Positions 48,208 through 64,000 of a stretch of DNA of 64,000 nucleotides are shown in pieces. Source of the stretch: Streptomyces hygroscopicus subsp. hygroscopicus (GTDB lineage Bacteria > Actinomycetota > Actinomycetes > Streptomycetales > Streptomycetaceae); the NCBI RefSeq assembly GCF_001553455.1, contig NZ_BBOX01000026.1, forward strand, positions 1-64,000, read 5' to 3'. Position 1 is the stretch's first letter, and every line of letters begins with the position of its first letter. The notes beneath the pieces were generated by a model. That model searched no databases. It saw nothing but the letters and a program-made list of their open reading frames with translations, and was not told the origin of the DNA. Both the position numbers and the translations under genes were made by a program.

Positions 48208-50148
48208 ATGGACATGCAGGCGACCGCCTGGCAATCCCTTTACCGGACGGCCCATGCCGCGGACGACCGGCGGCCCTTCTCCCGCGAGACGCTGCGCCGC
48301 ATCGGCGCCTTCGCCCGCCCGCACCGCCGCCCGCTGCTGCTGTTCCTGGTGCTGAGCACCGTCACGGCGGTGCTCGCGGTGGCGACGCCGCTGCTGGCCG
48401 GCCGGGTGGTGGACGCGATCGTCCACCGTTCGGGACAGGACACGGTCCTCGGACTGGCCGGGCTCATCGCCGCGATCGCCGTGGCCGAGGCGGCGCTCGG
48501 GCTGCTGACCCGCTGGCTGTCGGCGAACATCGGCGAGGGGCTGATCCTCGATCTGCGCACCGCCGTCTTCGACCACGTCCAGCGGATGCCGGTGGCGTTC
48601 TTCACCAGGACCCGCACCGGCGCGCTCGTCAGCCGGCTCAACAACGACGTGATCGGCGCGCAGCGGGCGTTCAGCGACACCCTCTCCGGGGTGGTCGGCA
48701 ACATCGTGACGCTGCTGCTCACCCTGGCCGTGATGATCGGGATCTCCTGGCAGATCACCCTGGTGACGCTGCTGCTCCTGCCGCTCTTCCTGCTGCCCGC
48801 GCGCCGGGTGGGCGGACGGCTGGCCAGGCTGCGGCGCGAGGCGGCCGCGCACAACGCCGCGATGAGCACCCAGATGACCGAGCGCTTCTCCGCGCCCGGG
48901 GCGACGCTGGTCAAGCTCTTCGGCCGGCCCTCGGAGGAGTCCGCCGAGTTCGCCGCGCGGACCCGCCGGGTGCGGGACATCGGGGTGCGGACCGCGATGG
49001 TCCAGGTGTCCTTCGTGACCGCGCTGACCCTGGTCTCCGCCCTGGCCCTCGCCCTGGTCTACGGCCTCGGCGGCTGGTTCGCGCTGCACGGGCGGCTCGA
49101 CCCCGGCGCGGTCGTCTCGCTCGCGCTGCTGCTCACCCGGCTCTACGCGCCGCTGACCGCGCTGGCCGGGGCGCGGGTCGAGGTCATGAGCGCGCTCGTC
49201 AGCTTCGAGCGGGTCTTCGAGGTGCTCGACCTCGAGCCGCTGATCAGCGAGAAGCCGGACGCCACGGAGGTCCCGGAGGGGCCGGTGTCCGTCGAGTTCG
49301 ACCGGGTCGACTTCGGCTACCCGGCCGCGGACAAGGTCTCCCTCGCCTCCCTGGAGGAGGTCGCCACCCTGGACACCCGCGGTGGCGTCCAGGTCCTGCA
49401 CCAGGTGTCCTTCCGCGCCGAACCGGGCCAGATGGTCGCCCTGGTGGGCTCCTCCGGCGCCGGGAAGTCCACCATCGCGCAGCTGCTGCCGAGGCTCTAC
49501 GACGTCGACGGGGGCGCGGTACGGCTCTCCGGCGTGGACGTCCGCGACCTGACCGCCGCGTCGATCCGCGCCACCCTCGGCATGGTCACCCAGGACGGCC
49601 ACCTCTTCCACGACTCGATCCGTGCCAATCTGCTGCTGGCCCGGCCGGAGGCCACCGACGAGGAGCTGTGGGAGGCGCTGCGCCGGGCCCGGCTGGAGGG
49701 GCTGATCGCGGCCCTGCCGGACGGGCTCGACACCGTCGTCGGCGAACGCGGCTACCGGCTCTCCGGCGGGGAGCGCCAGCGGCTGACCATCGCCCGGCTG
49801 CTGCTGGCCCGCCCCCGGGTGGTGATCCTCGACGAGGCCACCGCGCATCTGGACGCCACCTCGGAGGCCGCCGTGCAGGAGGCGCTCGCCGAGGCGCTGG
49901 ACGGCCGCACCGCGGTGGTGATCGCCCACCGGCTGTCCACGGTGCGGGCCGCGGACCTCATCCTCGTCGTGGAGGACGGGCGGATCGTGGAGCGCGGTAC
50001 GCACAGCGCGCTGCTGGCCGCCGGAGGCCGCTACGAGGAGCTGTACCGCACCCAGTTCGAGCAGTCGGCGGCGGTGCGGGACGAGTTCGCCGCCGACGGG
50101 ACGGCCGGGCCCGGTGGCCCCGCGACCGCCAAGACCCCGGCGACGTAG
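48208..50148 (+). CDS. ABC exporter with fused TM and ATPase domains
   Basis: A 646-residue half-transporter of the multidrug/lipid exporter type. Six TM helices are at about residues 40-320. The nucleotide-binding domain runs from about 365 to 600, with Walker A VGSSGAGKSTIAQ, Q-loop MVTQDGHLFHDS, signature LSGGERQRL and Walker B VVILDEATAHLD. It probably works as a homodimer. ATG at 48208 has GGAGG seven bases upstream; a GTG one codon earlier is possible. A MerR-type promoter lies directly upstream, so expression may respond to a drug or redox signal. Substrate unknown. Confidence 0.9.
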   Translation: MDMQATAWQSLYRTAHAADDRRPFSRETLRRIGAFARPHRRPLLLFLVLSTVTAVLAVATPLLAGRVVDAIVHRSGQDTVLGLAGLIAAIAVAEAALGLLTRWLSANIGEGLILDLRTAVFDHVQRMPVAFFTRTRTGALVSRLNNDVIGAQRAFSDTLSGVVGNIVTLLLTLAVMIGISWQITLVTLLLLPLFLLPARRVGGRLARLRREAAAHNAAMSTQMTERFSAPGATLVKLFGRPSEESAEFAARTRRVRDIGVRTAMVQVSFVTALTLVSALALALVYGLGGWFALHGRLDPGAVVSLALLLTRLYAPLTALAGARVEVMSALVSFERVFEVLDLEPLISEKPDATEVPEGPVSVEFDRVDFGYPAADKVSLASLEEVATLDTRGGVQVLHQVSFRAEPGQMVALVGSSGAGKSTIAQLLPRLYDVDGGAVRLSGVDVRDLTAASIRATLGMVTQDGHLFHDSIRANLLLARPEATDEELWEALRRARLEGLIAALPDGLDTVVGERGYRLSGGERQRLTIARLLLARPRVVILDEATAHLDATSEAAVQEALAEALDGRTAVVIAHRLSTVRAADLILVVEDGRIVERGTHSALLAAGGRYEELYRTQFEQSAAVRDEFAADGTAGPGGPATAKTPAT

Positions 50149-50191
50149 GCTGGACCCTTCAGCCCGATCCGTCCCCCGGAGCACATTCCCC

Positions 50192-51664
50192 GTGACCGAC
50201 CAGTCCCGTCGTCGCCGTCCCACCGCCCCGAACCGGCCAGGCAAGCCCTACCGCCGTCCGCAGAAGGACCCCGTGCGGATCCTCGCCTTCGAGGCGCTGC
50301 GGGCGGTCGACGAGCGGGACGCGTACGCCAACCTCGTTCTCCCGCCCCTGCTGCGCAAGGCGCGGGAGAGCGCGGAGGCCGGCAGCGGGCCGCGGTTCGA
50401 CACCCGGGACGCCGCGCTCGCCACCGAGCTGGTCTACGGCACCCTGCGCCACCAGGGCACCTATGACGCGATCATCGCCGCATGCGTGGACCGGCCGCTG
50501 CGCGAGGTCGATCCGCCGGTGCTCGATGTGCTGAGCCTCGGCGCCCACCAGCTGCTCGGCACCCGGATCCCCACACACGCCGCCGTCTCCGCGAGCGTCG
50601 AGCTGGCCCGGGTGGTGCTCGGCGACGGACGGGCCAAGTTCGTCAACGCCGTGCTGCGCCGGATCGCCACCCATGACCTCGACGGCTGGCTGGAGCGGGT
50701 CGCCCCGCCCTACGACGAGGATCCCGAGGCGCATCTGGGCGTTCGCCACTCGCATCCGCGCTGGGTCGTCTCCGCCCTGTGGGACGCGCTCGGCGGCGGC
50801 AGCGCCGCTATGGAGGAGCTGCTGGCCGCGGACAACGAACGGCCCGAGGTCACCCTCGTCGCCCGGCCCGGCCGGTCCACCACCGGGGAGCTGCTGGCCG
50901 CGGTGGGCGAGGGGGCCGCGGTGCCGGGCCGCTGGTCCCCGTACGCGGTGCGGCTCACCGAGGGCGGGGAGCCCGGGGCGCTGGAGGCGGTGCGCGAGGG
51001 CCGCGCCGGGGTGCAGGACGAGGGCAGCCAGCTGGTGGCCCTCGCGCTGGCCAACGCTCCGCTGGAGGGGGAGGACCGGCGCTGGCTGGACGGCTGCGCG
51101 GGCCCCGGCGGCAAGGCCGCGCTGCTCGGCGCGCTCGCCGCCGAGCGCGGCGCCTGGCTGCTGGCCGCCGAGAAGCAGCCGCACCGGGCCCGGCTGGTGG
51201 CCAGGGCCCTGGCCGGCAATCCGGGTCCGTACCAGGTGATCGCCGCGGACGGCACCCGGCCGCCGTGGCGGCCGGGCGGTTTCGACCGGGTGCTGGTGGA
51301 CGTGCCGTGCACCGGCCTCGGGGCGCTCCGCCGCCGCCCGGAGGCCCGCTGGCGGCGCCGCCCGGAGGACCTCGACGGGTTCGCCCCGCTGCAGCGCGGG
51401 CTGTTGCGGGAGGCGCTGGCCGCGGTGCGGATCGGCGGGGTGGTCGGCTACGCGACCTGTTCCCCGCATCCGGCCGAGACCAGGGCCGTGGTCGAGGACG
51501 TCCTCAAGGGGCGCGGCGGCCCGGCCGCCGGCGCGGAGTGGATCGACGCCCGTCCGCTGATGCCCGGGGTGCCCGAGCTGGGCGACGGCCCCGACGTCCA
51601 GCTGTGGCCGCACCGGCACGGCACGGACGCCATGTACCTGGCGCTGCTGCGCCGCACCGGCTGA
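50192..51664 (+). CDS. rsmB: 16S rRNA (cytosine-5) methyltransferase RsmB/Sun
   Basis: A 490-residue SAM-dependent enzyme methylating C967 of 16S rRNA (E. coli numbering). The N-terminal NusB-like RNA-binding domain (about 20-175) precedes the methyltransferase domain, with SAM loop CAGPGGKAALL, VDVPCTGLGALRRRPE, and the catalytic Cys in GYATCSPHPAETRAVV. GTG at 50192. The C-terminus is complete (MYLALLRRTG), although a transposon begins 12 bases after the stop; the element therefore leaves the gene intact. Confidence 0.95.
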   Translation: MTDQSRRRRPTAPNRPGKPYRRPQKDPVRILAFEALRAVDERDAYANLVLPPLLRKARESAEAGSGPRFDTRDAALATELVYGTLRHQGTYDAIIAACVDRPLREVDPPVLDVLSLGAHQLLGTRIPTHAAVSASVELARVVLGDGRAKFVNAVLRRIATHDLDGWLERVAPPYDEDPEAHLGVRHSHPRWVVSALWDALGGGSAAMEELLAADNERPEVTLVARPGRSTTGELLAAVGEGAAVPGRWSPYAVRLTEGGEPGALEAVREGRAGVQDEGSQLVALALANAPLEGEDRRWLDGCAGPGGKAALLGALAAERGAWLLAAEKQPHRARLVARALAGNPGPYQVIAADGTRPPWRPGGFDRVLVDVPCTGLGALRRRPEARWRRRPEDLDGFAPLQRGLLREALAAVRIGGVVGYATCSPHPAETRAVVEDVLKGRGGPAAGAEWIDARPLMPGVPELGDGPDVQLWPHRHGTDAMYLALLRRTG

Positions 51665-51676
51665 CCGGCCGCCGGC

Positions 51677-51755
51677 TGTAGCGTCTCAGAGTGAGTGACC
51701 TTTTCTCATTTCCAGTGGCCCCTGTCTGGCCCATGGGCCACGAAAGTGAGACGAA
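51677..51755. repeat. Candidate left end with TnsB-site-like repeats
   Basis: Starts TGTAGCGTCTCAGAGTGAG. A second similar site, TCTCATTTCCAGTGGCC, is at 51704-51720. An inverted one, GGCCACGAAAGTGAGA (51736-51751), reads on the other strand as TCTCACTTTCGTGGCC. Clustered degenerate copies near the terminus are expected of transposase binding sites. The 51756-51894 stretch before tnsAB shows no further gene. Confidence 0.5.
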
Positions 51756-51894
51756 CGGGCGTCCGTTGGTTCGCCTGGGGTCGTGAAATTTCAAGCGCCC
51801 CCCTGTACCGGCCCTGGGCTCCCGTGTGACCGTCGAGCTACGGAGTCGTCGGCTCGCGCCGTCGGCCCACCGCACACGCGTCCTCGGGAGTCGC

Positions 51895-54800
51895 ATGTCT
51901 GGTGCCGCCGGATCTGTCTCAGTGAGCATGCGCCGTGCCGATGGTGCGATCGTGCCGTCGGCCTGGCCTCACGCATGCATCAATGACCTGGAGACCTTGA
52001 CTCCGTGGCGGACGTTCCGCTGGCGTCACGGACAGAAGCATTATTCGGGGACATATTGGTCCTCGACGATGCGTGCTCACGTGATCTACGAGTCGAGGTT
52101 GGAGCTTACGCGCCTGCTGTATGCAGACTTTTCGCGTGACGAGCGTACCGTCTTCGCCCAGCCTTTTCTGATCACTGCGGAGGTGGACGGGAAGGTGCGG
52201 CGTCACGTGCCGGACTTTCTGATCCTCCGCGAGGGTCGGGTTCCTTTGGTGGTGGACGTCAAGCCCCGCGAGCTGCTCATACGTCCCAAGATCGCGTTTT
52301 CGCTCGGCTGGGCCCGAGAGACCGTGGAGGCATGCGGTTGGGACTATCAGGTCTGGTGTGAGCCGCCGGAGGAGGAGTTGGCCAATGTGCGATTCCTGGC
52401 TGGCTATCGACGCGATTGGCTCTTCGCCCCGGACCTGTTGGAAGAGTTGCGCAGCACTGACCTCGATGGGGCGACTCTGGGCGAGGCGTTTCGGTGCCTC
52501 CCACACCAGCCGCCCGAACTGGTGCGAGCGAGTGTGCTGCATCTGCTGTGGTCACAGGACTTCTCCACAGATCTGAGTGAGGTCCTGTCCAAGCGGCATG
52601 TGCTGCACCGAGGCCGAGCCTCAGTACTGGGGGCGGTACTGGATACGCCTCGTCAGCTTGTTGCGGAGCCCAAGGGCCGGGTGAGCGAAGCGAACCTGCC
52701 GCACCCAGGCGCAGTCCGAAGGAGGACAGGACGGATGAGCGGGAAAGGCGCGGTACGTGTCGGGGTGGGGACACGGTTTCGCTATGACGGTGAAGTCGTC
52801 ACGGTCGAGGAAATGTTCGGGGCTGCTGCGGGCAATGAGATCCTCGTCAAGGATGGGCGCGGCCGCAGATTCCGCCTCTCTCTGAGGGAGATCCTCACCT
52901 CCGGTCGCGGAAGTGTCATCGCGGAGGAGCCGGGACCGGCGTCGGACGACCCGGGGGAGGTGGCCTCGGTGGTTCTGGCCCAGCTCGATGAGGGCGAACT
53001 GGAGAGGGTCCGTGAACGGGCGGCTCACCTCAACGAGGTCATCTGTGGCTATAGGTCCGGCTCTCCTGAGCTGGCGGCGCCTGGGGAACCGCGCCCACAG
53101 TACGCGCCGGGCACCCCGAAGATGGCCCGTTACCAGGCCAAAGCAGATGAACTCGGAGTGGGCCTGCGCACTGTCAAGCGGTGGGTCAGCGCGTTCCACC
53201 ATGAGCGGGAAGCCGCACTGACACGCGGCCTTTCGGAGCGGCCGGCGGAGGCGGGGGGTGTGGGGCGGGCCGATCCGCGGTGGGTCGAGATGGCCTTGGA
53301 GATCATGGCGGAGCATACCGAGGCGTCTACTCCGAGCCAGGCGAAGGTCATCCGCAGCATGCGCCCTCGCTTGGAGGCTCGCTTTGGCAAGGGCGAGGTG
53401 CGGATCCCCGCACGGGCGACGGCCTACCGGTGGCTGAGCGAGTTGGAGAAGCGGCGACCGACGTTCCGGCTGAGCGCGAAGAGGAACCGGGACATCGCCG
53501 CCCGCCCGTCCGGTGTGTACGGCAAGCTGCGGCCGACCCGGCCGGGCGAGTACCTGCTGATGGACACCAACCGGCTCGATGTCTTCGCGATGGATCCCTT
53601 GACGCTGCGCTGGGTGCAGCCGGAGCTGACCGTCGCGATGGACTGGTATGACAGGTGCGTCACCGGGCTGCGGCTCACCCCGGTGTCCACCAAGGCCGTC
53701 GATGTCGCCGCAACCCTCTTTCAGACCTATCGCCCCGGCCCGGCGGGGAAGGACTGGCCACGCCATGCGGTCTGGCCCGACCACGGCATCCCCCGCACGG
53801 TTCTGCTGGACCGGGACGCGATCGAGGGCCCGATGGCGGACGCGGCAGCCAGGGTGACAGGACAGGGCGCTGCGGGGCCGGCGCTCGTTCCGGAGACGCT
53901 GGTGGTCGATCACGGCAAGGTCTACGTCTCTGAGCACATCACCTCTGTCTGCCAGCGGCTGGGCATCTCCATCCAGCCCGCCCGCCTGCGCACGGGCCGC
54001 GACAAAGGACCCATTGAGCGGTTCTTCCGGACTCTGCGCGAGGGACTTTTGGAGACGCTACCCGGCTACAAGGGGCCGGACATCTACGCACGGGGTGTGA
54101 ACCCGGAGGGGGAGGCGTTCTTCTTCCTCAACGAGTTGGAGGCGATCATCCGTGAGTGGGTCGCCGTGATCTACCACCACCGCCCCCACGATGGTCTCGT
54201 CGATCCGCGCGTGCCGGGGCTGGATCTGTCTCCGGCGGTCATGTTCGACCACGGCATCGCCCGCGCCGGATACGTCGAGGTCCCGCGCGATAGGGATCTG
54301 GGCTTTGAGTTCCTCAAGACGGACTGGCGACCGATTCATCACTACGGCGTGGAGATCCGCAGCTGCCGCTACAACGGTCCCGGGCTCAACGGGCTACGCA
54401 ATCAGACTAGCCCCTACACCGGACCGCGAGCCAAGGGGCGCTGGCCCATCCAGATCGATCCCGACGACATCAGCCGTGTCTTCTTCCGTCACCCCGAAAC
54501 CCGTAAGTGGCACACGCTGACCTGGGAACATGCACCAGCTGCGAAGTTCCCCGTCAGCGAGGAGGCTTTGGAGCTGGCCCGGCGGATGGCCGCGCACAAG
54601 TACCGCTACCCCGACGACGAGAGCGCGGTGGCTGAGCTGCTGGAGCGCTGGAACCTCGGGCTGGGCATGACGATGTCCGAGCGGCGGATCGCCCTGCGGA
54701 TGGCACGGGAGCAGCCCGCCATCGAGCTTCCCTCCACCGATGCCGCCGACGAGGTCGCCGCGCTGCCGTCCGTGGCACGGGTCCTGGCAGCCGGCTCCAC

Positions 54801-54954
54801 GGCCGACCAGGAGGAAGAGGAGGAAGCGGGGCTGTATGAGGGGCAGCTGGCCGGTGATGACGACGATGACGACGAACTCGACGGCCCCGACCCCCATGGC
54901 GAGGGGCCCGGTGACGAGGACGACTTCTATGCAGACGCCCTGGAGGACGCGTGA
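51895..54954 (+). CDS. tnsAB: TnsA-TnsB fusion transposase (heteromeric Tn7-like)
   Basis: A 1019-residue protein. The TnsA endonuclease domain (about 25-235) has Glu in YESRLELTRLL (E66/E70), Asp107 in HVPDFLI and Lys123 in VVDVKP. The TnsB part (about 281-970) has HTH segments (YQAKADELGVGLRTVKRW) and the rve DDE core D557 (LLMDTNRLD), D672 (LVVDHGKVYV) and E708 (KGPIERFF). An acidic tail (EEEEEAG, DDDDDDE) ends the protein and may contact TnsC. TnsA would cut the 5' ends and TnsB the 3' ends, giving cut-and-paste movement. The ATG at 51895 has GGGAG; a GTG at 51826 would add 23 residues. GC is lower than in the flanking core genes. Confidence 0.9.
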   Translation: MSGAAGSVSVSMRRADGAIVPSAWPHACINDLETLTPWRTFRWRHGQKHYSGTYWSSTMRAHVIYESRLELTRLLYADFSRDERTVFAQPFLITAEVDGKVRRHVPDFLILREGRVPLVVDVKPRELLIRPKIAFSLGWARETVEACGWDYQVWCEPPEEELANVRFLAGYRRDWLFAPDLLEELRSTDLDGATLGEAFRCLPHQPPELVRASVLHLLWSQDFSTDLSEVLSKRHVLHRGRASVLGAVLDTPRQLVAEPKGRVSEANLPHPGAVRRRTGRMSGKGAVRVGVGTRFRYDGEVVTVEEMFGAAAGNEILVKDGRGRRFRLSLREILTSGRGSVIAEEPGPASDDPGEVASVVLAQLDEGELERVRERAAHLNEVICGYRSGSPELAAPGEPRPQYAPGTPKMARYQAKADELGVGLRTVKRWVSAFHHEREAALTRGLSERPAEAGGVGRADPRWVEMALEIMAEHTEASTPSQAKVIRSMRPRLEARFGKGEVRIPARATAYRWLSELEKRRPTFRLSAKRNRDIAARPSGVYGKLRPTRPGEYLLMDTNRLDVFAMDPLTLRWVQPELTVAMDWYDRCVTGLRLTPVSTKAVDVAATLFQTYRPGPAGKDWPRHAVWPDHGIPRTVLLDRDAIEGPMADAAARVTGQGAAGPALVPETLVVDHGKVYVSEHITSVCQRLGISIQPARLRTGRDKGPIERFFRTLREGLLETLPGYKGPDIYARGVNPEGEAFFFLNELEAIIREWVAVIYHHRPHDGLVDPRVPGLDLSPAVMFDHGIARAGYVEVPRDRDLGFEFLKTDWRPIHHYGVEIRSCRYNGPGLNGLRNQTSPYTGPRAKGRWPIQIDPDDISRVFFRHPETRKWHTLTWEHAPAAKFPVSEEALELARRMAAHKYRYPDDESAVAELLERWNLGLGMTMSERRIALRMAREQPAIELPSTDAADEVAALPSVARVLAAGSTADQEEEEEAGLYEGQLAGDDDDDDELDGPDPHGEGPGDEDDFYADALEDA
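52719..52737 (+). promoter_or_regulatory. Internal ribosome binding site and ATG at the TnsA/TnsB junction
   Basis: AAGGAGG (52719-52725) lies nine bases before an in-frame ATG (52735), which starts MSGKGAVRVGVGTRFRYDG, exactly where the TnsB part begins. A free TnsB of 739 residues could be made alongside the fusion. Confidence 0.6.
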
Positions 54955-56090
54955 GCGAGCCGAGGAGCGAGCGGCCACGGCTCGACAACCTGACGCTCTC
55001 CCGTAAGGAAGGTTTTCGCCAGCTGGCGCAGGCGCCACCGCGTATCCAGCCCGATGCACTCACGGCGGCAGACCTCGCCGCGCTTGGTGCCGCGGCACGC
55101 GCCGCCTATGACCGGCAGCGACGCAACTGGCACGCCAATCTCGGGCCCATCCGGACTCCGCAATTGGCCGCACTGCAAGAGGACCTGTGGGACATCGTCG
55201 ACAGCAACGTCCAGGACGGCGACAAGCCCAAAGGGGCGATCGCGGTCGATGCGTTTCCGGGTCTGGGAAAGACGACGGCCGTGCTGCACTTCGCACAGAA
55301 ATTCCATCTGCGCGAGATCGGGGAAGAGGGCGAGTTCACCGAAGCCGGCCACGAACGGTGGCCAGTATGCCGAGTGGGCTTGACCAGCAACGTCGGCATG
55401 AAGGACTTCAACCGCGCCATCTTGGAGTTCTTCGCCCACCCGGCCCGCTTCAGGGGGACGGGCGCTCAATTCCTGCAGCGGGCGCTGGACTGTGTCCTTG
55501 ACTGCGAGACCAAGGTCTTGATCATCGACGATCTGCACTTCTTGAGGTGGTCGGGCCGCAACGGCCGGGAGGTCAGTAACCACTTCAAGTACATCGCCAA
55601 CGAGTTCCCCGTGACCTTGATCTTCGTGGGTGTCGAACTGGCCAGCCGAGGCCTGTACTCCGAGGCGGACGAGGGCGGCGACGTCACGCTTGCCCAGACA
55701 GCCCGCCGCACCACACCCCTCACGATGGGGCCGTTCGCGGTGAACGATGACAAGCGTCGCCGTGAGTGGCGGAACCTTATGCTGTGGCTGGAGAAGCGCA
55801 TCGTGCTCGCGGAGAAGTTCCCCGGCATGCTGGCAGATGAGCTGTCGGACTATTTCTATGCCCGCACCACCGGACACATCGGCTCCCTGATGACACTGGT
55901 CAACCGCGGCTGTCAGCGGGCAATAAGGACCGGCACCGAACGGCTCGATGAGGACCTCTTGAACAGCGTCACGATCGACGCTGCTTCTGAGAAGGCTCGC
56001 CAACAGCTACAAGCGTCCCTGCGGGCCCGACGCTGGACGTCCAAGACAACCGCAGGCCGCAGCGCAACCACCAAGGTAGCCCGCGGCTGA
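54951..56090 (+). CDS. tnsC: TnsC/TniB-family AAA+ transposition ATPase
   Basis: A 379-residue AAA+ regulator that links the target selector to the transposase. Walker A PGLGKTTAV (Lys107) is within VDAFPGLGKTT, Walker B is VLIIDDLHFL (Asp193-Asp194), and a sensor region LIFVGVELASRGLY follows. The N-terminal 60 residues probably contact TniQ or TnsAB. The C-terminal tail is basic (SLRARRWTSKTTAGR). Its GTG overlaps the tnsAB stop by four bases and its stop shares one base with the tniQ ATG. Confidence 0.9.
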   Translation: MSEPRSERPRLDNLTLSRKEGFRQLAQAPPRIQPDALTAADLAALGAAARAAYDRQRRNWHANLGPIRTPQLAALQEDLWDIVDSNVQDGDKPKGAIAVDAFPGLGKTTAVLHFAQKFHLREIGEEGEFTEAGHERWPVCRVGLTSNVGMKDFNRAILEFFAHPARFRGTGAQFLQRALDCVLDCETKVLIIDDLHFLRWSGRNGREVSNHFKYIANEFPVTLIFVGVELASRGLYSEADEGGDVTLAQTARRTTPLTMGPFAVNDDKRRREWRNLMLWLEKRIVLAEKFPGMLADELSDYFYARTTGHIGSLMTLVNRGCQRAIRTGTERLDEDLLNSVTIDAASEKARQQLQASLRARRWTSKTTAGRSATTKVARG

Positions 56091-58390
56091 TGGGCCCGGT
56101 GCGCACGATCCCCCTGCGGACCGAGCCTGTGGCAGGGGAGGCACTGGACAGCTGGCTCGAAGCCCTGGCGTCCAGCAGCAGGGCCCCACTGACCCAGGTC
56201 GCCGACGCACTGGGACTTGGCGGACAGCGTTTCTCCAATCCACGGTGGGCCATCGCCCTGAGGCCCACGGAGCGTGAGCATCTTGCCGTGGCCACCGGCG
56301 TTGCTCCGGACGTTCTGCAGCGCATGACATTGGAACGCTGGCACGGCAGAGCACTCTTCATCGATCCCCAACGCCCCAGCGTCGACAGGCGGCGGTTGTG
56401 GGGAAGGGCATGCGGGTCCCGCTACTGTCCCCAGTGCTTGAAGGAATCCGGCGGACGCTGGCAGCTGTCGTGGCGTCTGGCCTTCACCTTCGCCTGCACA
56501 CGCCATCACATGCTCCTGGCGGATACCTGCCCGGCATGCGGTCAGATCCCCCGCAGCACGGCCCACTACACGGGAACCACACCCGCTTTGGGAATCTGTC
56601 CCACGCGAGCACGCGACGCACCGCGAGAACGCTGCAGGTACGACCTCCGCGAAACAACCACCCCACAGCTTCCCACCGACAGCCCCCTTCTTGGGACACA
56701 GCGACAGCTGAACGAACTGATCGAGGAAGAGCACGAGACAACGACAGCCTTTGCCGGCGTCTACGGCAGCAAGCACATTGCCATCGCGCAGGTCCTGGCG
56801 GACCTGCGGACCTTGGCCTTCCGCGTGTTGACCTGCGCTCACGACGACGACCTCGCCCGTTGGGGCGACGATGAGCTGGTACGCGCCTGTCACGCCTACC
56901 GTCAGGCCCCGCTCACCAGCTACGGAGGCGGCCGCCGGGCTCCACACACGAGAGGCTCATGGGTAGCACCCACCGACGCCGCAGCAGCCGGCCTTGCTCT
57001 CTCGGCGGCCTTCGACGGCCTGAGCGGCTGGGACGCGGACCGTCCCGTGGAGCGCCTCGAGTGGTTCACCGACCGCTTGCAGGAAGCAGGAGGCGGCATC
57101 GCCCACTGCGATATCGAACAGTGGAGCTCGGAGGTATCACCCGAGCTCGTCGCCCTCGTCCTCGGCGCGGTACACCGCAGCCAAGGTCGCCGGGCGGTAC
57201 GCCTACACTACCGCAGCACCACAGGGCGACCCCGACGCCCCGCCAAGGGGCTCTACCTACCACAGGCCAGAGCGCAGAAGATGCCGGCGAGCCTGTGGGA
57301 CACCTGGACCCTACGGATGATGCCGCAGTCCTTCAGCGGAAACCTGCGCTGGGCCACGGTCCAACAGGCCCTCGCGGTCAGCACACTGCAGGTCGGAGCC
57401 TGGGTCAACCTGCGCCAAGCCATGGACATGCTGGGCACGAACCTGCAGATGAAGACCCTCTCCCGAACAGTGGACACCCTCCACACCCATGAAAGTGGCC
57501 CCGAGATCCTTCGGACCCTGACCCTGCTTGCCGACCTGCTGGACAGCGACGGCTCCCCGATCAACTACGCACGACGCCGGAAGATCTTCGGAAAGCGCAG
57601 GGACTTCATCACCCTCGACGAATGGACGTGTATCAGGAGAAATGCAGGCCACAACTACCCCGCAAACTCCTTCGTGCACCACGCCAACAGGTGGATCTAC
57701 CAACGACTCACTGGCAGCCCCGTGAGGATGATGCCCGCCCCCACAACGCCGATCCCCGACGACAAGCCACGCAAGTATCCGCAGTTCACCTTCGACCTCC
57801 ACCCGTCGGAGACCGAGGCACTCACACGCTGCTGCTACACACTCCTTGCTGAGCACGACATCACCGAACCATTGTCATGGGCGCCTTCGATCCCAGCGGA
57901 TCTGGACACCTCGCGGCTGGCCGGGACGACTCTGGAGAGCGTCACTCCCCGTCAGGTGCACGTGCTGCTCCTGACGGGCACCCCGAGTGCATCCGGCGTC
58001 GCCAAGGCCCTCGGCACCAGCGCGGCCCACATCCGCTGCATTATCGACCGGCATCCGCTCAGTCGGCACGACATCGTCGCCGACCGCATCGAGAAGTGGC
58101 GCCAGCTGTATCTGTCCGGCCGATCGGTAGCCGAGATCGCCCGTGAAGTCGGTGGCGGGCATCAGACCATCCTCACCGAGCTCCGCCGCCTCGGCGTGGA
58201 AATCCGCCCCCGTGCTCCCCGCCACCAGTACACGCATCTGACCGAAGAAGTCATTCACCGCTACACCAAACTTGACCAGTCCCTCCAAGACATCGCCGAT
58301 GCCACGGGGATGTGCAAGGCAACCGTCCGAAACATTCTCGAACGAGAACAAGTTCCCCGACGACGCTGCGGACGACGCACCCTTCGGTAG
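56090..58390 (+). CDS. tniQ: TniQ/TnsD-family target-site selector
   Basis: A 766-residue protein. N-terminal TniQ domain (1-160) with zinc ligands Cys108, Cys113, Cys116, Cys136, His139/140, Cys147 and Cys150 (CPQC and CPAC pairs). A long middle region has no recognised fold. The C-terminus (about 610-765) contains three HTH-like segments (TPSASGVAKALGTSAAHIR, SGRSVAEIAREVGGGHQTIL, SLQDIADATGMCKATVRNIL). The large size is like TnsD, which binds a fixed chromosomal site, rather than the short TniQ of CRISPR-guided elements. It presumably recognises the rsmB 3' end (inference). Confidence 0.87.
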   Translation: MGPVRTIPLRTEPVAGEALDSWLEALASSSRAPLTQVADALGLGGQRFSNPRWAIALRPTEREHLAVATGVAPDVLQRMTLERWHGRALFIDPQRPSVDRRRLWGRACGSRYCPQCLKESGGRWQLSWRLAFTFACTRHHMLLADTCPACGQIPRSTAHYTGTTPALGICPTRARDAPRERCRYDLRETTTPQLPTDSPLLGTQRQLNELIEEEHETTTAFAGVYGSKHIAIAQVLADLRTLAFRVLTCAHDDDLARWGDDELVRACHAYRQAPLTSYGGGRRAPHTRGSWVAPTDAAAAGLALSAAFDGLSGWDADRPVERLEWFTDRLQEAGGGIAHCDIEQWSSEVSPELVALVLGAVHRSQGRRAVRLHYRSTTGRPRRPAKGLYLPQARAQKMPASLWDTWTLRMMPQSFSGNLRWATVQQALAVSTLQVGAWVNLRQAMDMLGTNLQMKTLSRTVDTLHTHESGPEILRTLTLLADLLDSDGSPINYARRRKIFGKRRDFITLDEWTCIRRNAGHNYPANSFVHHANRWIYQRLTGSPVRMMPAPTTPIPDDKPRKYPQFTFDLHPSETEALTRCCYTLLAEHDITEPLSWAPSIPADLDTSRLAGTTLESVTPRQVHVLLLTGTPSASGVAKALGTSAAHIRCIIDRHPLSRHDIVADRIEKWRQLYLSGRSVAEIAREVGGGHQTILTELRRLGVEIRPRAPRHQYTHLTEEVIHRYTKLDQSLQDIADATGMCKATVRNILEREQVPRRRCGRRTLR

Positions 58391-58640: not shown

Positions 58641-60830
58641 CTAGCGATACCCCTGGACCTCGGGTGAGATCTTGAGTAGAGATTCTCGCTGATTCGAAGG
58701 GGTCTGCCGAGGGACCTCCACTGCTGTTGGCTGCAGTGGGGGTGTGCCAAAGAACGACTGGAAGATGAGGTCGAACTCGCAAGCAATCGATTCCTTGAAT
58801 ACCGGAAGCCCGCGGATGGCATCGGCGGTAGTGTAGCGCTCGCAGAACATGCGGGCCCGGTCGTTCTTGTTGTTCGACTCGTTGGCCTGGAGTTCGGGGT
58901 AGTAGGCTTCGATCGCCCCTCGCTCCCAGACATAGATGTCTTCGTGGCGAAGCGTCCTGAGCAGTTCCAGCTTCATCTCTGCCAGCTCCGGGTCATCGGC
59001 TTCTTCGAGAATCCGCCGGCTGGTTCCATAGGCGGAGCGGGCAAAGAACGCTTTCACGGCTGCGTCCACTTCCTCGAACTCGCATAGACCTTGTGCGTGT
59101 TCTTCGCTCTTGAGCTGTGCATGCTCCCACAAAGCCCGAGCGCTACCGTTCTTACTGAGACTCTTGAGGGTGCTGGCAGATACCGCGACGTCCTCGTTCT
59201 TCAGCAGTTCGTTGACCTTAGAGACGACCCGGTCACGCAGTTGCCGGCTGCTCGCGCCCAGTTTTTCGAACCCGTCAAGCAGCGCGTCTAGGTCCGCTAC
59301 GACCGCTACCCTCATCGCGAAGCGCTGGAAGAAGCTGCGGTACCGCTCGATGCTGCCTTTGCCTTCGACCTTGGCGATCGCAGCACCGTGCTTGTCGAAG
59401 TCCCACTGAGGGCTGAGGGTGCGCGCGATGTGAGGAATGAGAGTACGGTCGCTCGGCCCTTCCACGAGGAGTACGGAGGTGGCGAAGAAGGCCGCCTCGT
59501 TGTTCTCATGTGTGATGATCTCGAACTGATCGCGGGCGTCCATGTCGGACAGGTCGATCACGAAGGTCCGGCTGGCCGGGGGTTCCAGCGTGTGGTCCTT
59601 AACAACCTTGACAAAGGTGCCGGTCGCCCCTGGCGCACAGAATGCCGATGAGTGTGTGCTGACCAGGACATCGTTGTAGTTGGAAAACACGGTCAGGGCT
59701 TCGAAGAGCTGGCGCTGCGCCTGCGGATGCAGGAACACCTCGGGCTCCTCGAACAGCAACAAGCAGGGCTGTTGGGCACTGTCTGGCTGTGTTGGCTTCG
59801 AGGTCTTCATATCCACGTAGGCTCGCAGGATGGCGAAGGCCACCGACCGGCGCAGGCCGTCACCCTTGGTCTTGAACGGGCCGTTGATGCCGTCGTTGAC
59901 GGTGATCTGGGCGTCCTCCAGCAGGCTACGCAGGCGCGGCGGGGGAATCTCCAGGCGTACTCGTGCACGAGGGAAGGACTCCTGGAGATTGTGCTGGATC
60001 AGCGATTCGATCTGGCGGACCTCCGGTAGCCGACCGTCCGACTCGCTACCGTCCTCCTCCGAAACGACGTTCAGCTGGCTACGAAGCAGTTCGAAGGATG
60101 CTTCCAGCTGAGGTAATTGATGCTCGATGTCTTCGAACAAGATGGACAGCAGGCGTCCGAACGTCGCAGTGGAGCTGGTCTTGAGGTCGTCGTTGAGTTC
60201 CTTCACGGCCGGGATGTAGATGGGCTCCGGCAGCAGGGGAGCGACCGACTTGTCCAAGCCGGTCATCAGTGGGTCATCGCCAGTGGTGTACTCGTCGTCC
60301 CTAAGCGCACCGACGCATTCGGCCCATTCTCGCTCAACGGCGGTACGGGTGATCTTGCCCGTCAGTTTGGCAAAGATCTCCGGGTAGGCGAATTTAACGC
60401 TCTCCCCAAGCTCCTCGGTGGTGATCTTGGGCCGGAGGACCTCCTTCAGGGCTCCGTTGTGGAACCGGGCCTCCCTCGGCACCTTCCGGACCACCCAAAT
60501 TGTGCCCTTCCCGGCCCCCGCGTACGTTCGCGCTAGGGTCAGTCGTCCGTCCGCGACCACCGGCTCGATGCGTGAGCGGTGACTCTCCTCGAGGCGCTTG
60601 AGGTCTGCTGTGCCGATGCCGGCGAAGGTGAGCTGAATGCGGATGGGCAGCGAGGGGTTCAAGAAGTCGGTGTCGACTGCAGAGCCCGAGCGAAGGAACA
60701 TGTTGAGGGCCTGGAACACGGAGGACTTCCCCACGTTGTTCTCGCCGATGAGGCAGCCGAAGTGGGAGAACGACATGTCCACATGGCTCAGTCCGCGGAA
60801 GTTGTCGATCCTGATGTGTTCGAGGCGCAT
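58641..60830 (-). CDS. OLD-family ATP-dependent endonuclease
   Basis: A 729-residue protein. The N-terminal ABC/AAA15-type ATPase has Walker A GENNVGKSS (Lys35), a long coiled insert, signature-like KGDGLRRSVAFAILRAY and Walker B LLLFEEPEVFLHPQ, with a HSSAFC switch His. The C-terminal TOPRIM domain has Glu457 (LLVEGPSDR) and Asp513/Asp515 (VVADLDAL). OLD nucleases such as P2 Old act in phage exclusion. No helicase partner is adjacent, so it is not Gabija. The ATG at 60830 has GGAG seven bases upstream. It is the first cargo gene, convergent with tniQ. Confidence 0.9.
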   Translation of the reverse strand: MRLEHIRIDNFRGLSHVDMSFSHFGCLIGENNVGKSSVFQALNMFLRSGSAVDTDFLNPSLPIRIQLTFAGIGTADLKRLEESHRSRIEPVVADGRLTLARTYAGAGKGTIWVVRKVPREARFHNGALKEVLRPKITTEELGESVKFAYPEIFAKLTGKITRTAVEREWAECVGALRDDEYTTGDDPLMTGLDKSVAPLLPEPIYIPAVKELNDDLKTSSTATFGRLLSILFEDIEHQLPQLEASFELLRSQLNVVSEEDGSESDGRLPEVRQIESLIQHNLQESFPRARVRLEIPPPRLRSLLEDAQITVNDGINGPFKTKGDGLRRSVAFAILRAYVDMKTSKPTQPDSAQQPCLLLFEEPEVFLHPQAQRQLFEALTVFSNYNDVLVSTHSSAFCAPGATGTFVKVVKDHTLEPPASRTFVIDLSDMDARDQFEIITHENNEAAFFATSVLLVEGPSDRTLIPHIARTLSPQWDFDKHGAAIAKVEGKGSIERYRSFFQRFAMRVAVVADLDALLDGFEKLGASSRQLRDRVVSKVNELLKNEDVAVSASTLKSLSKNGSARALWEHAQLKSEEHAQGLCEFEEVDAAVKAFFARSAYGTSRRILEEADDPELAEMKLELLRTLRHEDIYVWERGAIEAYYPELQANESNNKNDRARMFCERYTTADAIRGLPVFKESIACEFDLIFQSFFGTPPLQPTAVEVPRQTPSNQRESLLKISPEVQGYR

Positions 60831-61331
60831 GGTGCTCCAGAGGATGCTCAAGCCGAGCGATCAGCGTAGAGACCCGCGTGGCATCGCCACCGGGATAAAG
60901 CGAGATCGGCTGACATGTCGGGAGTGAGTGGATTTGGGCCACCTTCAAGCCGAAGGGGGTCGCGTGACCAGAGAGGGCGCGACCGGTGGCGAAGGTGATG
61001 AATGCATGGCTTGGAGCCGTTACGGGAGGTCGGCCAGTGGCTACTTGCCTGTTCGAGGCATGGGCGTGGGTGCTTGCTCCATGGGTTCGCCTCCCATGAC
61101 GCCCGGGAAGGGGTAGACGGGGGGTGTACAGGTCGCCGTCCGCAGTCAGCTTGTTATGCCTCGTCCGCTTGCTTATCGGGTCCGCACGGCTGGACAAGTG
61201 TCGGACAGACAAGATGTGGTCAGCAGACTTCGTTATCGCGAACGTCGTCGGGCATAGGGGGTGTTGGCCATGGACCGTACGTGGCAAGATCGGGTCACTC
61301 ACGGTGAGCTTGGGTCTGCAGGGGGTTAGAA
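60831..61331. other. Divergent promoter spacer between OLD and ABC-3C genes
   Basis: About 500 bases without a credible gene. It contains related short elements GCTTGTTATGCC, GCTTGCTTATCGG and ACTTCGTTATCGCG (about 61150-61250) and a direct repeat GGACAAGTG / AGACAAGATG, which may be operator or promoter sequences for the ABC-3C operon. Confidence 0.5.
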
Positions 61332-62540
61332 ATGGCTGAGCGGGAACCCGATTTTGAGGCGTCGGCTTCAGCGCTCGGTTACGTGTACCAACTACGTGAA
61401 GCCCTCCACCTATGTGTGAGCCGTCTCGGAGATCTTGACTGGGCGTTGGCCATCGAGGCGGGCGACGACATCGAGGAGGTCCGCCGATACGGGCGGACGT
61501 ACTACCAGCTCAAACACCGTGCCCCTGGCACGAAGATGACCAACGCAAGCACGGACTTGTGGAAGACCCTGCGCATCTGGGCCCACGCTATCCACGGCGG
61601 GCAACTCGACCTCGATCAGACCGATCTCATCCTGCTCACCACGGCGGAGCTGCCCGATGGGTCTGTAGGCAGCATGCTGCAGCCGACGGATTCCCGGCAA
61701 CGGGACGAACAGAACGCCCTGGAATCCCTGAAGACCACCCGCAGGACCTCCAAGAGTGAGTCCCTTGCGAAGGCGTTCGCGGCATTCGATCTCCTGAAGC
61801 CTCCACAGTTGGTGCGTATGGTGTCCAAGATCCAAGTGATCGGTAACGCCCCCGACGTGGATGCCGTCGAGCAGAAGCTACGGCAGGCGGCGATCACGGC
61901 CGTGGGACGTGAGCACGCCGCATCATTCCTAGTCCGCCTGGAGGGATGGTTCTTCCGACGCAGCATCCAGCAACTGCGCGCTGGCGGCGCGGACGCGATC
62001 ACTGGGCTGGACTTTGACGCGGTCTTTTCCGATCTGCGCAACCAGTTCGGGAGGACGAACCTGCCCATTGACGAGGACATCGCCGAGATGGAAGCGGACC
62101 TTGCCAAGTACTCCGGCCAGCCATTCGTACGGCAGCTGGAGCTCATTGAGCTGGGATCGAGGCGGGTGAACCGCGCGGTGCGCGACTACATGAGGGCTGT
62201 CACCCAACGCTCGCGATGGCTGAATGAGAACCTTCTGCTGCCGAGAGAGCTCAGCCGCTATGAGCGGCGCCTGATCGAGGAGTGGGAGGAGCTCTTTGAC
62301 GACATGGTGGACACCCTCGGCGCCGAGGCGGCCGAAGCAGAGAAGATCGCCGCAGCCACGAGGATCTACCGGTGGGCGATGACCGAAACCCAGCGGCGCA
62401 TCCGCCCTGAGTGCGATGAGCCGTTCGTCGCCAAAGGCTCATTCCACATACTGGCCGACGACTACAAGATCGGCTGGCACATGGACTTCGTCGCTCGCCT
62501 CATGGCCGTGCTGGAGCCTGTGGAGACCACATCTGTATGA
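61332..62540 (+). CDS. ABC-3C system component with nuclease-like N-terminus
   Basis: A 402-residue protein. The first 70 residues carry the restriction-endonuclease-fold pattern seen in Cap4/DUF4297-like effectors: GYVYQLREAL, Glu42 and Asp45-Asp46 in IEAGDDIEEV, and Gln59-Leu-Lys61 in YYQLKHR. The rest is helical, ending in a C-terminal domain (about 230-400) that in ABC-three-component systems docks to the partner subunits. ATG with AGGGGG upstream; it overlaps the next gene by four bases. I infer a DNA-cutting effector kept in check by the other two proteins. Confidence 0.75.
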   Translation: MAEREPDFEASASALGYVYQLREALHLCVSRLGDLDWALAIEAGDDIEEVRRYGRTYYQLKHRAPGTKMTNASTDLWKTLRIWAHAIHGGQLDLDQTDLILLTTAELPDGSVGSMLQPTDSRQRDEQNALESLKTTRRTSKSESLAKAFAAFDLLKPPQLVRMVSKIQVIGNAPDVDAVEQKLRQAAITAVGREHAASFLVRLEGWFFRRSIQQLRAGGADAITGLDFDAVFSDLRNQFGRTNLPIDEDIAEMEADLAKYSGQPFVRQLELIELGSRRVNRAVRDYMRAVTQRSRWLNENLLLPRELSRYERRLIEEWEELFDDMVDTLGAEAAEAEKIAAATRIYRWAMTETQRRIRPECDEPFVAKGSFHILADDYKIGWHMDFVARLMAVLEPVETTSV

Positions 62541-63028
62541 GTGAGTTCAGCACCCTCAGCCGCGATGAGCGCGCCATCTACAACCCCGCCTTCACGGGTT
62601 TGGTCGTGGCTCGTGCGGTGCAAGGGCATCAAACGGAGTTCGCCACGCCATGCCCAGTCGTCATCGCGACCCTCGCTGCGGTCATGGCCCTGCAGCCGAC
62701 GGTGCGCACCGCGCTGCCACGCTCAACCGCGAGCGGACTGCACCGTTGGGTGCAGGGACATCCGGACGTGCGCGCGTCGATGACCCTGAACGCGACGGCA
62801 ATCGCAGATGTTGTCCGCCCCGGTCTGCTGATGGCCCTGCAAACACGCACGCTGACGTGCGATGCAGAGGGGCACCTCCACGTGCCCAGCAAAGCTTTGA
62901 AGAAGGCCATCACCGGCGGCAGCGACGATGTCACTGCCGTTCAGAAGGCCGCGCTGCTGCTGGGGCGTTGGCTACCCAGCGCCGGCAGCATAAGCACCGT
63001 CATGACCCTGCTAGGAGTCCGGCCTTGA
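62537..63028 (+). CDS. ABC-3C system middle component
   Basis: A 163-residue, mostly helical protein of the small middle component type: an N-terminal IYNPAFTGLVVARAVQGH, a central short winged-helix-like region (RSTASGLHRWVQGHPDVRA) and a C-terminal KKAITGGSDDVTAVQKAALLL. It bridges the effector and ATPase subunits in the three-gene ABC-3C arrangement. Overlaps: ATGA with the gene before and TTGA with the ATPase after. Recognition is mainly by context plus size. Confidence 0.7.
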   Translation: MSEFSTLSRDERAIYNPAFTGLVVARAVQGHQTEFATPCPVVIATLAAVMALQPTVRTALPRSTASGLHRWVQGHPDVRASMTLNATAIADVVRPGLLMALQTRTLTCDAEGHLHVPSKALKKAITGGSDDVTAVQKAALLLGRWLPSAGSISTVMTLLGVRP

Positions 63029-64000
63029 CGTTCCAGATCCGCGCCATCTCCATCTACAGCAGGGATGGCGAGATTCGCACAGTTCCGTTCCAGACAGGCT
63101 CACTCAACATCATCACGGGGGACTCCAGACGCGGAAAGAGCGCCCTCTTGACCATCGTCGACTACTGCCTGGGCAGCGACGACTTCGTCATCCGGGGAGC
63201 GGCACTCCGCAACTTCGTGCACGTCTTCGCGCTCACCATCGCCAAGGGCGACGAGCAGCTGTTCGTGGCACGTCCCGCGCCCGTCGGCAAGGCGGCAACC
63301 AACACCACCTTCTGCATCGTCTCCCAGGCGCACGGAGCGCCCCCGCCTGACTATGCGAACTTGACCTTCTCCATGCCGCTGGATGTCGCCAAGAAGGTTC
63401 TGTCTAGGTTCACCGGCATCGACCCCTCCGTGCAGCTGCCCGTGGCACGCAGCCCCCGCCAGCTCTCCCCATCCGTGCGGCACGGCTTGTTCTTCTGCCT
63501 CCAGGAGCAGAACGAGGTCGCCAATCAGGACCTTCTCTTTCACGGTCAGATGGACGACTTCCATCGCCCCGCTCTGCGAGCGATGCTCCCGTATTTCCTA
63601 GGAGCCGTGGATCCCGAACGCGCCCAGCTTGAACACCGCCTCAGGCTCCTACGTCGGCAACTGATCGAACAACAGGAGCACCTGCGGGCAGCCCGTCCCT
63701 TCCAACACGCCTCAGGGACGGCGGCCGGCCTGCACGGGGAAGCCGTCGAAGCCAACCTGCTGACCCCCGCCCCGGCAGGACGTCTACTGTCCAACGACGA
63801 GATTGTTGACCGACTGCGCCAAGCGGTCGAGACAACCGTTCCTGATGCGGAGCCACCCGCGGGCGAGGACCCGCTGTCTGCTCTCAACGCGACGCGGCGC
63901 GACCTGCGTGAGGCCTACTCCCGGACCCGCGTACGGATATCCAACCTCAAGACCATCGCTAGAGAAAAGGACGACTTCCTCGGCCAGGTACAGGAGCAGC
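63025..64000 (+). CDS. DUF3732 SMC/ABC-like ATPase of ABC-3C system (cut by window end)
   Basis: 325 residues are visible and the frame is open at the window end. DUF3732 signature: FQIRAISIYSRDGEIRTVPF, LNIITGDSRRGKSAL (Walker A, Gly37-Lys38-Ser39) and IVDYCLGSDDF, then LFFCLQEQNEVANQDLLFH (Q-loop region). A coiled-coil arm begins at about residue 205 (RLRLLRRQLIEQQEHLRAA). It probably senses invading DNA or structure and licenses the nuclease subunit. The TTG start overlaps the previous stop (TTGA) with AGGAG eight bases upstream. The C-terminal ATPase half lies outside the window. Confidence 0.85.
   Translation, partial: MTFQIRAISIYSRDGEIRTVPFQTGSLNIITGDSRRGKSALLTIVDYCLGSDDFVIRGAALRNFVHVFALTIAKGDEQLFVARPAPVGKAATNTTFCIVSQAHGAPPPDYANLTFSMPLDVAKKVLSRFTGIDPSVQLPVARSPRQLSPSVRHGLFFCLQEQNEVANQDLLFHGQMDDFHRPALRAMLPYFLGAVDPERAQLEHRLRLLRRQLIEQQEHLRAARPFQHASGTAAGLHGEAVEANLLTPAPAGRLLSNDEIVDRLRQAVETTVPDAEPPAGEDPLSALNATRRDLREAYSRTRVRISNLKTIAREKDDFLGQVQEQ

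Follow-up and report, generated by a model that had tools for sequence, protein, structure and literature searches.

What places a Tn7-like transposon a few bases behind the intact rsmB gene of Streptomyces hygroscopicus subsp. hygroscopicus? The locus lies in a window of 64,000 nucleotides (positions 1 to 64,000 of contig NZ_BBOX01000026.1, assembly GCF_001553455.1), which is part of a 108,985-bp contig; the element continues past the window end. Elements of this type have inserted behind rsmB repeatedly and independently, at a near-fixed offset and in a fixed orientation. The S. hygroscopicus element is very probably an autonomous-looking Tn7-like cut-and-paste transposon that homes behind rsmB by means of a long TniQ/TnsD-type selector.

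Anatomy and ends of the element

The rsmB gene (50114–51664, forward strand) encodes a protein with NusB and Methyltr_RsmB-F domains (Pfam); RsmB models are its best match, yet they score under the NCBIfam curated cut-offs. The first-pass annotation, made from the letters of the window, had described an intact rsmB stop, then 12 bases, then a TGT-starting terminus, and each of these was borne out: the TGA stop lies at 51662–51664, the gap at 51665–51676 (its last five bases, 51672–51676, are CCGGC), and the terminus TGTAGCGTCTCAGAGTGAGTGACC begins at 51677. The tnsA-proximal transposon end (51677–51825, forward strand), which has a similar counterpart in L065 and L186, is followed by three complete genes on the same strand, whose reading frames overlap as an operon. 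These are tnsAB (51826–54954, 1042 aa, with its start predicted at the first possible start codon), a fusion of a TnsA-like endonuclease and a DDE transposase; tnsC (54951–56090, 379 aa), a TniB/AAA+ ATPase; and tniQ/tnsD (56090–58390, 766 aa), the putative rsmB selector. In the span assigned earlier, 51665–58390, the last position marks the end of tniQ only, and the element reaches contig position 73071.

The TnsA part of the fusion matches NCBIfam TnsA_like_Actin at 223.6 bits (cut-off 110), with the Pfam model Tn7_TnsA-like_N below its own cut-off (22.1 versus 26.5 bits), and the DDE part is similar to TnsB chains of solved structure (E 2.8e-16). TnsC matches TniB (52.7 bits) and AAA_22 (48.4 bits), both over cut-off, as well as VchTnsC (E 4e-6). 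TniQ scores 80.6 bits in Pfam (cut-off 27), with its TniQ core at residues 8–143 and helix-turn-helix domains at the C-terminus. The motifs VVDVKP (TnsA), LLMDT, LVVDHGK, and PIERFFR (TnsB), and GLGKTT and VLIIDD (TnsC) were located, and we take their catalytic roles to be the customary ones; TniQ has two CxxC motifs. The motifs agree with the first-pass annotation, which had described every DDE, TnsA, and Walker residue as present. No TnsE is named among the family matches of the element open reading frames (ORFs) scanned.

The ends read TGTAGC...CCTACA in the S. hygroscopicus element and TGTAGG...CCTACA in two orthologous elements described below, those of S. fulvoviolaceus and genome G436. 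The elements of S. hygroscopicus and S. fulvoviolaceus each have repeated TGAGA/TCTCA motifs at either end (counted without a chance control), which are candidate transposase sites. With TnsA and a DDE-type TnsB, TnsC, TniQ/TnsD, TGT...ACA ends, and a 5-bp duplication, the element is Tn7-like. Tn7 has TGT/ACA ends and makes a 5-bp target duplication. The S. hygroscopicus element resembles Tn7 at attTn7 (glmS) in these two respects, in its insertion past the stop of a conserved gene, and in its TnsD/TniQ selector; it differs from Tn7 in using rsmB, in its offset of 12–13 bp, and in having a single TnsA-TnsB protein.

Element 1 runs from 51677 to contig position 73071 (21,395 bp). Four bases past it another end of this type opens, TGTGGCGTCTTAGAATGAATGACC, with 3 of 24 mismatches to the end consensus. 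The resulting element 2 is 1,204 bp long, has its outermost end at contig 74279, and contains a single scanned ORF, which has no Pfam match. The CCGGC that precedes the first TGT recurs right after this outermost end (contig 74280–74284) and precedes a third end-like sequence, which is degraded (6 of 24 mismatches), against a background minimum of 8 in 142 bins further along the contig. The rsmB position of S. hygroscopicus thus probably has three layers; rpe starts beyond them, at contig 75655.

Repeated insertions and empty sites at rsmB

A scan of genome contigs with TniQ returned four loci: three distant matches in Acinetobacter and one close orthologue, in S. fulvoviolaceus (67% identity for TniQ, 81% for TnsAB, and 84% for TnsC). 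Among 375 genomes of the family, 18 had matches (E ≤ 1e-60), S. hygroscopicus included, with one other close orthologue, in G436, which by its group code belongs to another genus (TniQ 62%). Within the genus (392 genomes, E ≤ 1e-10), 69 genomes had matches and the S. hygroscopicus TniQ was the only close one, the next reaching at most 36% over most of the length or, as partial matches, at most 51% over ~60 residues. The class-wide search (374 genomes, E ≤ 1e-60) matched three genomes, S. hygroscopicus and two at 30% identity, and gave no further close TniQ. Plasmid matches, in 125 records, were all below 60% identity (at most 32.6% in the best 20 of the 125), and phages gave no TniQ match.

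All three close TniQ orthologues lie between rsmB and rpe. The S. fulvoviolaceus element starts at rsmB stop +13 with the left flank GCGAG, and its far end, GGGCCTACA followed by GCGAG, is on another contig, ~4 kb before rpe. This element is split over the two contigs, whose junction was not seen, and its far end was sought knowing the left flank; the 19.3 kb searched contain ACAGCGAG a single time. In G436 the element starts at rsmB stop +12 with the left flank CCTGT, and its far end, CCTACA followed by CCTGT, was not seen on contig C154 and lies on a separate contig, ~145 bp before rpe. It was sought by the pattern CCTACACCTGT, which has four matches in the genome (control, two); the chosen one of the four is preceded by GTGAGAC/ATGAGAC repeats and followed by rpe.

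The tnsA side faces rsmB in all three elements, the offsets from the stop are +12, +13, and +12, and the 5-bp flanks match inside each element and differ among elements (CCGGC, GCGAG, and CCTGT). The first-pass annotation had named repeated independent insertion at one offset as support for homing, which is what was found in three of three close orthologues, and had named orthologues scattered at unrelated loci as the contrary outcome, which was not. Because the flanks match within elements and differ between them, we take the three to have arisen by separate insertion and not by inheritance. A single ancestral insertion passed down to all carriers, with no homing, would accord with the confinement of the carriers to one family (two assigned by group code, S. 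fulvoviolaceus by name) and with the single group formed by their TniQ proteins; the distinct flanks, the shift in offset, and the vacancy of the site in most sampled relatives make such descent very improbable.

That vacancy was seen in 69 relatives whose rsmB 3' sites we compared; these are the best matches of our searches (one over 381 genomes) plus G219, and not a random sample. In this comparison with empty sites, which the first-pass annotation had proposed, 68 of the 69 sites have no recognizable element, counting L142, which has a weak match. They include species 93–97% identical over the last 200 RsmB residues. Nine fetched relatives (L139–L147, 93–97% identical) are the best among the listed matches to the RsmB C-terminus. 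In eight of these nine, L142 among them, rpe lies 1.1–1.3 kb past the rsmB stop; in L147 no rpe occurs within the fetched reach after rsmB. The remaining site, in a fourth species (G023), contains a relic: an end-like sequence at rsmB stop +14 with 4 of 24 mismatches (the lowest of 1303 background bins has 8), followed by fragments of TnsA (E 5.8e-7 in the search of the 69 stretches). The match in L142, at +44 with 7 mismatches, is not claimed as a relic. Separately, in L140 and L142, and less exactly in L141, a 20-bp stretch spanning the rsmB end is repeated 28 bp downstream.

We also considered whether the space between rsmB and rpe tolerates insertions in general, as a hotspot in which the element came to lie by chance. 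In relatives the two genes do lie as little as 78 bp and as much as over 2.5 kb apart, as such tolerance would predict, but the offsets of 12, 13, and 12, the constant facing of the tnsA side towards rsmB, and the location of other TniQ lineages elsewhere leave this explanation little probability, though marginally more than descent from one insertion.

Three observations weigh against the homing reading. The whole set amounts to three orthologues and one relic; the tniQ of G436 breaks off near residue 517, where its contigs end; and the five bases after element 1 in S. hygroscopicus, CCAGT, differ from the CCGGC before it. CCAGT consists of CCAG plus the T of the next TGT, and CCGGC is matched at the outermost end only.

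TniQ as the putative selector of rsmB

The predicted structure of TniQ (mean predicted local distance difference test score 82) resembles TnsD of the TnsD-TnsC-DNA complex 8v32 over residues 2–239 (Z 13.8, root-mean-square deviation 3.8, 188 residues aligned), and the top 16 structural matches of the model are all TniQ/TnsD chains. Helix-turn-helix matches occur in its C-terminal part at residues 659–704 and 708–754 (Z about 6–7; 7.1 and below). The likeness to TnsD is one of fold only: in a comparison of the TniQ sequence with solved chains, no TnsD chain appeared at E ≤ 0.1 and one CRISPR-repeat-binding chain with a helix-turn-helix was matched, and Foldseek alone gave no match for the model at E ≤ 0.001.

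The coding end of rsmB is well conserved among the three host genomes, with 30 of the last 39 positions identical. By analogy with Tn7 TnsD, this coding end is most likely the target that TniQ contacts. TniQ bound there would recruit TnsC and next the fused TnsAB together with both ends of the transposon, and insertion would follow ~12 bp past the rsmB stop, with the tnsA-proximal end towards rsmB and rsmB left intact. We infer both the recruitment of TnsC and present-day activity of the element. The TnsD protein of Tn7 binds to the final 36 bp of glmS, and the transposon lands ~25 bp past this binding site (PMC2918618, in part).

Homing could instead be guided by RNA, with a guide in the element matching rsmB and TniQ merely bridging to a CRISPR effector. 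CRISPR-associated relatives with fused TnsAB do exist, and I-F3 guides target genes such as rsmJ (portions of PMC11406308). In the present case, however, exact matches of the composite element to the gap and the last 300 bp of rsmB reach 13 nt at most, inside the 12–14 nt spread of 17 control stretches; no cas family occurs in the Pfam matches of 15 element ORFs, a set that does not cover every small ORF; and TniQ is 766 aa long with C-terminal helix-turn-helix domains. RNA guidance is consequently about as improbable as inheritance, and protein-directed homing by TniQ is the reading we retain.

The element shares a fused TnsA-TnsB, TnsC, and a TnsD-type selector with TnsAB-fusion elements, including the I-B2 and I-D CRISPR-associated transposons, without membership in the same branch being implied. 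These I-B2 and I-D transposons have tRNA-gene sites and Cascade, whereas the S. hygroscopicus element has a protein-gene site and no cas family in its scanned ORFs. Attachment genes named in the literature consulted are glmS, tRNA genes, parE, guaC, yciA, ffs, and rsmJ (PMC11406308, in part), and comM for Tn6022 (PMC10293859, in part). The view that rsmB is not a known attachment gene agrees with the open literature searched, where we found no mention of it in that role; supplements and most subscription papers were beyond reach. An Actinobacteria-dominated clade of Tn7-like elements was experimentally uncharacterized as of 2021, and the main-text portions of that study name no protein-gene attachment site for it (PMC8649781); we do not imply that the present element belongs to this clade. 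The separate insertions in three species of Streptomyces-type bacteria suggest that the 3' side of rsmB is a new, harmless attachment site for Tn7-like elements. The TnsAB-TnsC-TniQ set, with its defined landing site, could become an insertion tool for Streptomyces.

Sites, selectors, and cargo of related elements

A search with the DDE core matched 138 of 392 genomes (E ≤ 1e-30). Of the 41 matches that scored over 250 bits, all except S. hygroscopicus, G280, and the second G134 match had their flanks fetched (38), as did nine later TniQ matches; with the S. hygroscopicus element and L065, 49 elements were located. The gene upstream of tnsA within 700 bp is rsmB in three, dnaB in 16, an ompA-like gene in three, gap in two, and an NlpC/P60 gene in two; 23 are unassigned. 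This tally is descriptive, as the candidate genes were drawn from the same 49 elements, the four non-rsmB genes were first spotted by eye, and identities rest on Pfam for one example each. A long TniQ next to tnsAB, the search criterion proposed earlier, is thus not diagnostic alone, since three of the 49 lie at rsmB and 23 behind the four other genes.

The 46 other elements have related TnsAB and TnsC, with TniQ ~25–43% identical, and no rsmB was found in their fetched stretches at E ≤ 1e-8 (L108, L135, and L193, at a stretch edge, were not judged). Since rsmB occurs with the close TniQ and was not found beside those of the 46 TnsAB/TnsC relatives that could be judged, the site goes with the selector and not with the transposase. 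Quickly computed trees of TniQ (44 rows) and TnsB (47 rows) give the same picture. In the TniQ tree the three rsmB selectors cluster together (support 100), and in the TnsB tree the three rsmB elements (support 92) group with L099 and L190 (support 100), whose fused TnsAB is 67–68% identical, whose TniQ is ~30% identical, and which are not beside rsmB. Outside rsmB and the ompA-like gene, selector lineage and site are not one-to-one, because the dnaB-associated selectors are split in the TniQ tree (8 changes needed). In G252, G090, and G132, more distant TnsB relatives are found close to either end of one large contig and score equally at each end.

The 16 dnaB-associated elements (L103–L107, L111–L116, L120, L121, which is fragmentary, L138, L188, and L189) have their terminus 7–11 bp after the dnaB stop, and dnaB seems to be a common landing site in the genus and family of S. 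hygroscopicus. In L188 (G548:C1:4004000-4023500) dnaB is followed by a tandem pair of elements; CGGTT precedes the first, and the two are separated by CGGT and the T that comes next, a spacing that resembles the 4-bp spacing of the stacked S. hygroscopicus ends. L101, L191, and L192 lie 22–27 bp behind the ompA-like gene and have closely related TniQ, making this gene a possible further attachment site. L127 and L129 lie 8 bp behind a glyceraldehyde-3-phosphate dehydrogenase gene (481–483 aa), and L133 and L134 lie 5–14 bp behind the NlpC/P60 gene.

On balance, we lean towards a single transposase lineage in Streptomyces-type bacteria that uses interchangeable TniQ proteins for the 3' ends of dnaB, rsmB, ompA-like, gap, and NlpC/P60 genes, and whose stacking at rsmB builds a layered defense island. 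Exchange of TniQ partners has been described in the TnsAB-fusion branch (PMC11406308, in part). If this is correct, rsmB is one of several undescribed attachment genes. The present element adds rsmB to the genes whose 3' ends are Tn7-type landing sites, and the same extends to dnaB and others. TniQ lineages with differing sites also make selector-DNA recognition testable through domain swaps.

Defense and other cargo is described for Tn7-like elements by Benler et al. 2021 (PMC8649781, in part). Behind tniQ, the S. hygroscopicus element encodes an OLD/Gabija-type ATPase-TOPRIM protein (58641–60851, reverse strand; family matches). On the forward strand follow Lamassu-like genes (61332–63028), consisting of an LmuA-like gene (61332–62540) and a weakly LmuC-like one (62537–63028), and the start of an LmuB-like ORF (63025–64000), which is cut by the window end and runs in full from contig 63025 to 64974. 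Further along, a CHAT protease-like protein (contig 65445–67769; L002:2445-4769) is encoded next to a TPR protein (67654–68499; L002:4654-5499). These two had no PADLOC match and are a possible further defense pair. The cargo of the element is of defense type and comprises likely anti-virus genes.

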